64,000 nucleotides of DNA from Thermococcus sp. SY098 (GTDB lineage: Archaea; Methanobacteriota_B; Thermococci; Thermococcales; Thermococcaceae): positions 1,640,760 to 1,704,759 of the forward strand of contig NZ_CP141821.1 of the NCBI RefSeq assembly GCF_035621495.1, in the 5' to 3' direction. Under the pieces are notes generated by a model. It was not told the origin of the DNA and searched no databases. It worked only from the letters and a program-made list of their open reading frames with translations. Made by a program: the position numbers and the translations under genes. Of this stretch, positions 39,364 through 42,026 are shown one piece after another; the first letter of the stretch is position 1; each line of letters opens with the position of its first letter.

Positions 39364-39607
39364 TTCAGACCACCACGAGGCTGGTGAAGAGCAGGTTTTG
39401 GTTTATAAAGGTTGCTGAAGAGAAGAGGGCTTTGATGAACACCAATATTCATTTCCTTGCTGGGAAATAAAGAAGAAGGAGCTTTAAAAGAGGAACTGGC
39501 TATTTTCTTGCTGTAATCTCATCATTGGATTCGACTAAAGTATCAAAACTTCAATCAGAAGTAGTTATAAAAAGTTGTTGGATTAAAGATTGAAAGGGGT
39601 GGAACTA

Positions 39608-40102
39608 TTGAAAAGTAACGTGATATGCTATAAACCCATTGGCATTATTCACACTCCATTTAAAGAGCCAAGAGGAATTCCAATACAGCCTTCTGCAGCA
39701 AGAGGAATTGAAGGGAAGGTAGAAGTCTTCCCAGAATATGTCCAAGGTTTGAAAGACCTTGAGGGATTTTCGCATGTAATTTTAATTTACCACTTTCATC
39801 TGGCAAAACCCGGCAGTTTGTTGGTCAAGCCTTATATGGACGATGAGTATCATGGAGTCTTTGCCACTAGAGCCCCAAGTAGACCCAACCCAATAGGTCT
39901 CTCTATAGTGAGGCTTGTCAAAGTTAAAGGGAATATACTTCACGTTAAAGATGTCGATATAGTGGATAGAACGCCTCTCTTAGATATCAAACCTTATGTC
40001 CCGGATTTCGACGTTAGAGAGGTTGAAAGAATAGGCTGGCTTGAAAACAATATTCATAAACTTTCAAAGGCGAAGGATGATGGGAGATTTATACTAGAGT
40101 AA
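39608..40102 (+). CDS. trmO: TrmO-like tRNA N6-methyltransferase family protein
   Basis: A 164-residue protein; TTG 39608 (MKSNVICYKPIGIIHTPF) is taken as start because GGGGTGG lies just upstream. Signature segments are PIGIIHTPFKEPRGIP, LKDLEGFSHVILIYHFH and ATRAPSRPNPIGLSIVRL, typical of the TsaA/TrmO family. The E. coli enzyme methylates N6 of t6A37 in tRNA-Thr using S-adenosylmethionine. Role in tRNA modification is inferred from the family. TATA-like TTATAAAAAG precedes. Confidence 0.92.
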   Translation: MKSNVICYKPIGIIHTPFKEPRGIPIQPSAARGIEGKVEVFPEYVQGLKDLEGFSHVILIYHFHLAKPGSLLVKPYMDDEYHGVFATRAPSRPNPIGLSIVRLVKVKGNILHVKDVDIVDRTPLLDIKPYVPDFDVREVERIGWLENNIHKLSKAKDDGRFILE

Positions 40103-40547: not shown

Positions 40548-40558
40548 GTTTATATTTC

Positions 40559-40574
40559 ATTAGGTTTACCTAAT
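40559..40574 (+). promoter_or_regulatory. Operator ATTAGGTTTACCTAAT, copy 1
   Basis: A 16-bp palindrome (arms ATTAGGT and ACCTAAT, two-base centre) directly downstream of a TATA-like GTTTATATTT and 12 bases before the NifX-like gene start. An identical copy precedes the radical SAM gene. TTAGG...CCTAA is the arm type of DtxR/IdeR-class metal regulators. Binding here would block transcription. Confidence 0.75.
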
Positions 40575-40586
40575 TTCGGTGAGGAG

Positions 40587-40982
40587 ATGAGGAAGCTTAG
40601 GATAGCGTTTGGGATGGAAAATGAGGGAAAGCTGACAGATGGTCACTATGGGGACTCAGAGTTCTTCTTAATATACGAAATCTTAGAAAATGGGACTGCA
40701 AAGCTCTTGGAAAAGAGATCAAACAGAGCTAAGAAGATGGAGGAGCATGAGAGTGAGCACGGTGATCTGAGGAAGTTTAGGGCTATCATTGAACAACTAA
40801 AGGATGTTGATGTGCTGGCGGCGTTCAGAATGGGCCCTAACTTCTTGAGAATCAGAGACCAGAGCAATAAAGTTGCATTCTTTACGAATACGAGGGATCT
40901 AAATTTAGCACTTCAAAGAGTTATTGAAAGCTTTGAAGAGCTTTGGAAGCAAGTTGAAGAGAAGAAGTCAAAGCATGCTTGA
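40587..40982 (+). CDS. NifX/NafY-like iron-molybdenum cofactor family protein
   Basis: A 131-residue protein starting at ATG 40587 (MRKLRIAFGMENEGKLTD) after GGTGAGGAG. The fold pattern (AFGMENEGKLTDGHYGDSEF, IIEQLKDVDVLAAFRMGPN) fits the ribonuclease-H-like NifX/dinitrogenase cofactor family. In non-diazotrophs such proteins may carry Fe-S or metal clusters. An acidic/His-rich insert (EEHESEHGD) is present. It shares its operator with the radical SAM gene, pointing to metal-responsive control. Cytoplasmic. Confidence 0.82.
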   Translation: MRKLRIAFGMENEGKLTDGHYGDSEFFLIYEILENGTAKLLEKRSNRAKKMEEHESEHGDLRKFRAIIEQLKDVDVLAAFRMGPNFLRIRDQSNKVAFFTNTRDLNLALQRVIESFEELWKQVEEKKSKHA

Positions 40983-41045
40983 ATTTTCAGTTTTACTTTT
41001 TTGTTTTGTTCAACTTCATAAATCTATTCGAAATCTTTATACACC

Positions 41046-41061
41046 ATTAGGTTTACCTAAT
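41046..41061 (+). promoter_or_regulatory. Operator ATTAGGTTTACCTAAT, copy 2
   Basis: Identical to the site at 40559-40574 and placed the same way: directly downstream of a TATA-like CTTTATACA and 14 bases before the radical SAM gene start. Two identical 16-bp sites 487 bases apart in the same promoter position indicate a shared repressor. Confidence 0.75.
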
Positions 41062-41075
41062 TTTGGTGAAAGTCA

Positions 41076-42026
41076 ATGATAGCATTTGGTCCCGTTCCAT
41101 CTCGCAGATTGGGAAAAAGCTTAGGCATAAACAACATTCCAGATAAAGTATGCTCATATGCTTGTGTTTACTGCCAAATTGGGAGAACAATTAAGATGGA
41201 AGTTGAAAGGAGGGCATTTTATAACCCAGAGCTGATCTTCAAGGAAGCTAAAGAAAAAGTTGAGAAAGCCAGAGCAAAAGGAGAGCGCGTTGATTATATC
41301 ACATTTGTTCCAGATGGTGAACCGACTTTGGATATTAACCTTGGAAAGGAAGCTGAGCTATTGAAAGAACTTGGAATCCCTTTGGCAATTTTAACGAACT
41401 CTTCCCTAATCTGGAGGAAAGATGTTAGGGAGGATTTATTGAAGTTTGATTTTGTCTCTCTAAAGCTTGATGCTGTAAGTGAGCAACTGTGGAGAAAAAT
41501 TGACAGATCTCATAAAAGCTTAAAGCTCGATGAAGTCCTTGATGGAATGCTCAAATTTAGAAAAGAGTTCAAAGGAAAACTCGTAACAGAGACTATGCTC
41601 ATCGATGGAGTTAATTATGGAGACGAATTTGAGAAGATTGCTGAGTTTCTGAAGAAGCTTGAACCAGATATAGCTTACATAGCTATTCCAACGAGACCCC
41701 CAGCGGAAAGGTGGGTTAAGCCAGCTAATGAGGAGACGATAAACAGAGCGTTTCAGATTTTTGCTAAGGCTTTAGGAAGTGATAGAATAGAGTATCTCAT
41801 TGGCTATGAGGGAAATGCATTTGCTTTTACGGGAAATGTTGAGGAGGATTTACTGAGCATAACGGCTGTCCACCCGATGAGAGAAGATGCCGTTGAAGAC
41901 TTTCTTAAAAAGGCCAATGCAGAGTGGAGCATTGTTGAGAAGCTTTTGATAGAAGGAAAGCTTATTGAGCTTGAATATGAAGGCAGAAAGTTTTACATGA
42001 GGAAGCTCAAGAGCAGAAATCTTTAA
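41076..42026 (+). CDS. Radical SAM protein (COG0731-like)
   Basis: A 316-residue protein starting at ATG 41076 (MIAFGPVPSRRLGKSLG) after GGTGAAAGTC. The cluster-binding motif CxxxCxxC is at Cys26, Cys30 and Cys33 (CSYACVYC), and FVPDGEPTLD supplies the usual GEP SAM-binding segment. N-terminal FGPVPSRRLGKSLGINN is typical of COG0731, related to wyosine-synthesis TYW1 but without its other domains. The C-terminal part has a winged-helix-like tail. It would use SAM to start a radical reaction; substrate unknown. Co-regulated with the NifX-like gene. Confidence 0.88.
   Translation: MIAFGPVPSRRLGKSLGINNIPDKVCSYACVYCQIGRTIKMEVERRAFYNPELIFKEAKEKVEKARAKGERVDYITFVPDGEPTLDINLGKEAELLKELGIPLAILTNSSLIWRKDVREDLLKFDFVSLKLDAVSEQLWRKIDRSHKSLKLDEVLDGMLKFRKEFKGKLVTETMLIDGVNYGDEFEKIAEFLKKLEPDIAYIAIPTRPPAERWVKPANEETINRAFQIFAKALGSDRIEYLIGYEGNAFAFTGNVEEDLLSITAVHPMREDAVEDFLKKANAEWSIVEKLLIEGKLIELEYEGRKFYMRKLKSRNL

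Follow-up and report, generated by a model that had tools for sequence, protein, structure and literature searches.

The window, a stretch of 64,000 nucleotides (64 kb) from Thermococcus sp. SY098, carries two neighbouring genes on the forward strand that are preceded by the same promoter layout. The first (40587-40982, +) encodes a NifX-like protein of 131 residues without cysteine, and the second (41076-42026, +) encodes a radical-SAM protein of 316 residues with a CX3CX2C motif, whose cysteines 26, 30 and 33 are its only three. In front of the NifX-like gene, a TATA-like box read from the sequence (TTTATATT, 40549-40556, +) is followed after 2 bp by the operator ATTAGGTTTACCTAAT (40559-40574, +) and a Shine-Dalgarno-like GGTGAGG (40578-40584, +). 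In front of the radical-SAM gene, the TATA box TTTATA (41036-41041, +), likewise read from the sequence and supported by column conservation, lies 4 bp upstream of an identical operator (41046-41061, +) and a Shine-Dalgarno-like GGTGA (41065-41069, +). Both promoters therefore have one layout: a TATA box, a gap of 2 or 4 bp, the operator, a ribosome site of the GGTGA type and, 12 or 14 bp after the operator, the ATG. As archaeal transcription usually starts about 25 bp downstream of the TATA centre, the operator would occupy the stretch that separates the TATA box from the transcription start, an arrangement that fits repression. A TrmO-like methyltransferase gene (39599-40102, +) lies upstream of the pair as a possible associate, and no operator was seen at it.

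The original prediction had placed the same unchanged 16-mer just behind the TATA box at both positions, as we found, and had called for a genome-wide search. In the 2,033,621-base genome there are exactly two copies, both in the window and none beyond this pair, and the backward-read pattern had no copy in the whole genome. When up to three mismatches were allowed, the window search returned just the two sites, each also read on the opposite strand, and these four matches were reached in none of 100 shuffles. The full identity of the two 16-mers is partly a coincidence: relatives have unlike 4-bp middles at their two promoters (for instance TTTA versus TTCA in locus L054, CTTA versus TTCA in L056), and TTAGG and CCTAA are fixed. 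What selection keeps is the pair of arms, TTAGG-N4-CCTAA.

We found this box before the radical-SAM gene in 73 of 77 distinct scorable upstream regions from Thermococcaceae, counting a region as boxed if at least 9 of the 10 arm bases matched; four regions (L171, L173, L193 and L214) had none. The count omits matches that do not start within the first six residues of the protein, are under half length or have E over 1e-60, genes with less than 60 bp upstream, and regions whose last 60 bp repeat an earlier one. The 73 boxes lie 12 to 23 bp upstream of the start codon, and the position of the TATA box relative to the operator is kept. Nine of the ten arm positions have the same base in 72 or 73 of these regions and the tenth in 69, a conservation that is partly by construction since the regions were selected on their arms; the 4-bp middle is variable except for its last position. 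For the NifX-like gene, a box was detected within 120 bp in 38 of 38 distinct upstream regions, omitting matches not starting in the first six residues or with E over 1e-25, genes with less than 70 bp upstream and repeated regions. It occurs in two layouts, either between TATA and ATG or further upstream, in a promoter common to a divergent gene that in many loci is a pair of MinD-type ATPase genes. Absence of the site from relatives, which had been named as grounds for giving up the prediction, was thus not what we observed within Thermococcaceae. In addition, the box precedes MinD1, a MinD-type ATPase gene, in 41 of 41 upstream regions and an IssA-like paralogue in 15 of 16, both counts applying to a sample of Thermococcaceae loci and not to the whole family. 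Among 304 other ORFs of the radical-SAM loci, scored as a control, 52 reached 9 or 10 of 10, and most of the control rows listed have the intergenic region of the radical-SAM gene in common with it or belong to NifX-like, IssA-like or MinD genes; in two rows (L180 and L182) the supposed control is the radical-SAM gene with a start assigned further upstream. This contaminated set gives no clean false-positive rate, so the reversed palindrome is the better control.

A looser scan of the SY098 genome (ATTAGGTNNACCTAAT, three mismatches) gave 92 forward matches versus 137 for the control and was of no use, and we therefore required both arms to be perfect and left the 4-bp middle free. This pattern occurs 11 times in SY098 versus 6 times for the reversed pattern. 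Across 94 Thermococcaceae genomes there are 985 boxes versus 258 reversed; all 94 genomes have boxes, and in 91 of them the boxes outnumber the control. All 11 SY098 boxes lie within -1 to 21 bp upstream of an ORF start, whereas a start was found within 21 bp for one of the six reversed palindromes and at 52 bp for another, and five of the six lie in long open frames. By Pfam assignment, the boxed genes encode the FTR1 permease (ftr1) and FeoA-FeoB (feoAB) for iron import; a ZnuA-like binding protein, an ABC ATPase and a ZIP transporter; a peroxiredoxin (AhpC/TSA), MinD1-MinD2 (MinD with Fer4) and an AP_endonuc_2 TIM barrel; and an IssA-like PF02579 protein together with the NifX-like and radical-SAM proteins of the window. 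In the work of Zhu et al. 2013, P. furiosus DtxR reportedly acts on ftr1 and feoAB. The small, probably metal-controlled regulon that had been proposed is supported by these 11 boxes, which stand before iron and metal transporter genes among others.

Further genes were seen at boxes. The IssA-like gene of SY098 (L225:11412-11888, -; box at L225:11909) encodes a Gly-rich basic tail (22 Gly of 50, pI 11.4). An iron box at this gene is odd, because IssA is described as iron-sulfur storage in the accessible part of PMC5524996. According to the accessible part of PMC8516115, IssA homologues of M. voltae rose together with FeoB, which makes an iron-starvation role for the IssA-like protein worth testing. 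A FolE2-type GTP cyclohydrolase gene (L024:676-1497, -) starts 3 bp behind its box. Nineteen bp behind another box begins a FeoA-domain protein (L051:1534-2100, +) with a helix-turn-helix-looking N-terminus, as judged by eye, which may be an additional regulator that senses iron. In L035-L037, L045, L046 and L049 the box is followed at 26-80 bp by a DHHA1-type phosphoesterase-like gene (Pfam assignment for one of them). In L023, L033 and L043 a histidine-phosphatase-family gene begins directly at the box (locus position 1501; Pfam assignment for L033 only); from its start we take the protein to be phosphoglycerate mutase, and a metal-free enzyme that takes over from a metal-dependent counterpart when metal is scarce would be consistent with this box. 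The near-complete genome G012 is without the radical-SAM and NifX-like genes, has three boxes (control three) and keeps its DtxR-type gene; most of its regulon has been lost naturally.

A search with PF02742 (Fe_dep_repr_C) detected one DtxR-type repressor in SY098, in which PF01325 and PF02742, the DNA-binding and metal-binding domains of DtxR, are joined in one protein. A PF02742 protein is present in 86 of the 94 Thermococcaceae genomes and in 73 of the 74 near-complete ones. As for autoregulation of dtxR, no perfect-arm box was found in L113. The operators share the TTAGG/CCTAA arms, the single DtxR-type repressor and the boxes at ftr1 and feoAB with the DtxR/IdeR/DmdR1 boxes and the P. 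furiosus DtxR regulon. A DtxR/IdeR operator is a 19-bp interrupted palindrome that takes two repressor dimers. Those boxes are overlapping doubles of 19 bp, whereas here we found a single palindrome of 14-16 bp with arms 4 bp apart. The 14-bp form TTAGGCTAACCTAA, which occurs at several radical-SAM promoters, is contained in the right-hand part of TTAGGTTAGGCTAACCTAA, an iron-repressor box given as a DmdR1 site in the accessible part of PMC7174319 (Table 1). Together with the single repressor and the boxed iron importers, this match speaks for the earlier assignment of the arms to the DtxR/IdeR type, and the DtxR-type repressor is very likely the protein that would bind both 16-mers.

We next considered the two proteins themselves. 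The NifX-like protein belongs to PF02579 (44.6 bits, gathering cut-off 26.3). As a member of the NifX equivalog (TIGR02663) it was rejected, at 21.7 bits versus a curated cut-off of 112. Its structure model (pLDDT 88) matches the NafY core (1p90), NifX bound to NifEN (9ian) and a Thermoplasma relative, with ORP (2wfb) lower, suggesting the fold that serves as a cofactor carrier in nitrogenase maturation. The radical-SAM model (pLDDT 83) resembles many radical-SAM folds, including SuiB, viperin, NifB (6y1x), PFL-activase and TYW1, so that the predicted fold does not give the reaction; by sequence, the single PDB match was a designed Rossmann fold (E 0.0098). NifB has, besides its radical-SAM domain, additional cysteines that hold two more clusters. 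This assignment (TIGR01290) was rejected because the protein has just Cys26, Cys30 and Cys33 and NifB is absent from its NCBIfam matches, and viperin (NF038283) was rejected at 43.8 bits versus a curated cut-off of 180. Among the 94 Thermococcaceae genomes, a match to the radical-SAM protein was found in 81 and to the NifX-like protein in 75, a few of them fragments, and several genomes carry one gene without the other. Both genes are absent in 4 of 75 genomes, a weak co-occurrence (Fisher p = 0.048, or 0.09 if fragments are counted as absent), and this weak co-loss, with the genomes that have one gene alone, speaks against a close partnership of just these two genes. Fragments or in-frame stops in G015, G026, G029 and G079 and in L234, L235 and L237 show a radical-SAM gene in decay, in some cases after duplication, indicating that it is dispensable in some lineages.

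A scan of a genome collection for radical-SAM relatives confirmed 583 stretches, of which the best 80 were analysed, and the fractions apply to that sample. Without six Thermococcaceae loci it comprises 74 loci from archaea and bacteria, with flanks up to 6 kb. A NifX-like gene was found in 21 of these 74 (from the best 80 of 583), a MinD pair in 20 and both in 16; in six, the start of the radical-SAM gene follows MinD within 150 bp. In the other 58 of the 74 (same best 80 of 583) the NifX-like gene and the MinD pair do not both lie within the flanks; 27 loci are shorter than 9 kb. The MinD pair near these distant genes consists of ferredoxin-bearing ATPases. From window size and genome size, the chance background for such clustering should be about one per cent. 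With L217, L220 and L221 added to the 74 from the best 80 of 583, the recurrent neighbours in 77 loci were MinD-type (21), NifX-like (15), metallo-beta-lactamase (15) and Mrp/NBP35 (14), less often methyltransferase (9), NifU-like (7) and DUF134 (7), and least often CGGC (6), TrmO (5) and Fur (5). TrmO-like genes thus occur both upstream of the window pair and beside radical-SAM relatives in 5 of 77 distant loci. In L217, from an archaeon of the same class and another family, two NifX-like genes, two MinD genes and the radical-SAM gene stand in close succession; in L220 a gene that is NifX-like by eye (unscored) follows the radical-SAM gene.

Outside Thermococcaceae no box was found in the 737,742 bp of the 74 loci (from the best 80 of 583), and before the radical-SAM gene no site scored at least 9 in the ten loci that represent further families within the class, which indicates that the module itself does not need box control. 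Within Thermococcaceae, the NifX-like, MinD and radical-SAM genes are shuffled and pairwise adjacent in differing arrangements, with the box at most junctions. The NifX-like gene adjoins the radical-SAM gene in the window's genus, the radical-SAM gene adjoins MinD in L184-L186, L197, L198 and L204, and the NifX-like gene is divergent from MinD in L064 and L066-L070; the NifX-like and MinD genes are often under one common operator. In SY098 the MinD pair lies far from the window pair. The guess that both window proteins build or insert a metal cluster together gains support from the shared operators and from the clustering in distant organisms with genes for MinD/ferredoxin and Mrp/NBP35 ATPases and for NifU-like scaffolds. 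From these genomic patterns, the NifX-like, MinD and radical-SAM proteins probably act in one pathway, and the chances that its product is a metal cluster are about even.

The module resembles two known systems. The Desulfovibrio ORP complex (Orp3, Orp4, Orp5, Orp8 and Orp9) contains two related 4Fe-4S-motif proteins and other metal-binding proteins and is encoded by divergent, sigma54-controlled operons (PMC6345978, accessible part). SY098 (L225) and L217 likewise have two paired MinD-type ATPases that bear Fe-S domains, together with a NifX/ORP-fold protein, and the modelled fold of the NifX-like protein matches ORP. However, the genes here have archaeal TATA promoters with a DtxR-type box, and none of the five named ORP proteins is called radical-SAM in the accessible part of that paper. 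With the Nif route (NifB/NifX/NafY) the module has in common a radical-SAM enzyme and a NifX/NafY-fold protein, with structural matches to NifB, NifX and NafY, and its MinD ATPases match the NifH-family Pfam model weakly. It differs in that the NifX-like protein is far below the NifX and NifB cut-offs and the radical-SAM protein has just three cysteines. The module is thus neither system, as it fails defining features of each. The NifX-like protein also shares the PF02579 domain with P. furiosus IssA (thioferrate storage) and has neither a Gly-rich basic tail nor a cysteine, whereas the boxed IssA-like paralogue at 591 kb has the tail. The targets most widely checked here, the radical-SAM, NifX-like and MinD genes, are not named as DtxR targets in the accessible parts of the literature consulted.

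We propose, with a probability of about 0.75, that the two sites are operators of a single DtxR-type iron repressor and that they control a radical-SAM/NifX-like/MinD cluster module which would be derepressed at low iron. The Fe(II)-charged repressor would sit between TATA box and transcription start and block initiation; when iron is short it would leave, and both window genes would be expressed alongside other metal genes such as ftr1 and feoAB. The NifX-like and radical-SAM proteins would work in one module with the pair of ferredoxin-domain MinD-type ATPases, a module that may most plausibly assemble, carry or repair an Fe-S or other metal cluster, with the NifX-like fold as cofactor chaperone and the MinD ATPases as carriers. 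A role as cluster carrier, repair or assembly system is the simplest reading of the carrier fold and the 4Fe-4S domains of the MinD pair. As a counterpoint, producing Fe-S proteins under iron shortage is not an obvious strategy.

How far the sites have regulatory meaning, and for which metal, can be weighed from the same data. The two sites are identical in SY098, middle included, which could reflect chance or a promoter fragment copied recently. Chance would not be expected to yield exact copies, however, and the arms are kept in other genera in which middles and flanks differ, making such an origin without regulatory meaning extremely improbable. The signal is harder to assign. The repressor's best PDB matches are to MntR, with IdeR and DtxR lower. 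In 31 aligned Thermococcaceae sequences, position 9 is Glu or Asp in all 31 and position 12 is Glu in 29, acids that we take to be MntR-like, whereas Cys101 and His105, which are presumably placed as in DtxR/IdeR, are invariant (31/31), as is His78. This mix of a DtxR/IdeR-type cysteine with MntR-type acids would make iron the likely metal and manganese a possible one. Manganese, or several divalent metals acting through the same operator in a general metal-stress response, would also account for the boxes before the znuA-like, ZIP and ABC genes and, in the relative L024, before the FolE2-type gene. We consider it unlikely, given the boxed ftr1 and feoAB and the invariant cysteine and histidine. 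Furthermore, DtxR is presented as an iron regulator in archaea in the accessible parts of PMC8516115 and PMC12827226, both of which refer to the P. furiosus work of Zhu et al. 2013. Iron is thus the likely signal for the boxes as far as the sequences go, and expression of the NifX-like and radical-SAM genes can be predicted with good confidence to rise when iron is low.

Shared control may also exist without cooperation, the NifX-like protein being a general iron-sulfur handler and the radical-SAM enzyme serving a separate low-iron task such as RNA or peptide modification. The regulon includes transporters and peroxiredoxins, which have no need of joint action, and each of the two genes is found alone in several genomes. 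TYW1, PFL-activase, SuiB and viperin are also among the matches of the radical-SAM fold, and TrmO, methyltransferase and metallo-beta-lactamase genes lie near relatives of the radical-SAM gene in distant loci. Against this, the grouping of NifX-like, MinD and radical-SAM genes is seen repeatedly across phyla, and in Thermococcaceae they adjoin each other in pairs of varied arrangement, so that we regard separate tasks as rather doubtful, if less so than a manganese signal, and favour a common module under iron control.

The operator type and DtxR control of iron import are already known. DtxR control of these genes and the radical-SAM/NifX/MinD set were not found in the literature searched, which was seen in part and mostly excluded subscription papers, Zhu et al. 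2013 among them. The extension of a DtxR-type box to this set, and the radical-SAM enzyme as a part of it, are therefore apparently new. As a more speculative and on balance improbable extension, the radical-SAM protein, the NifX-like protein and the MinD/ferredoxin pair could together make up an assembly line that is independent of nitrogenase, builds a metal cofactor not yet described and is switched on through DtxR in Thermococcales at low iron. If true, this assembly line would be widespread in anaerobic archaea and bacteria, a functional parallel of NifB/NifX/NifH.

With its exact operator, this analysis outlines a family-wide, testable iron regulon for Thermococcales. It also connects a radical-SAM enzyme that is so far uncharacterised with iron starvation and with a conserved set of genes for Fe-S-type ATPases and NifX-like chaperones. 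An unassigned gene set of anaerobes thereby becomes accessible to direct genetics in T. kodakarensis and P. furiosus. Collectively, the use of the same switch as the iron-uptake genes and the clustering elsewhere point to an unstudied metal-handling pathway that would be turned on when iron is scarce.
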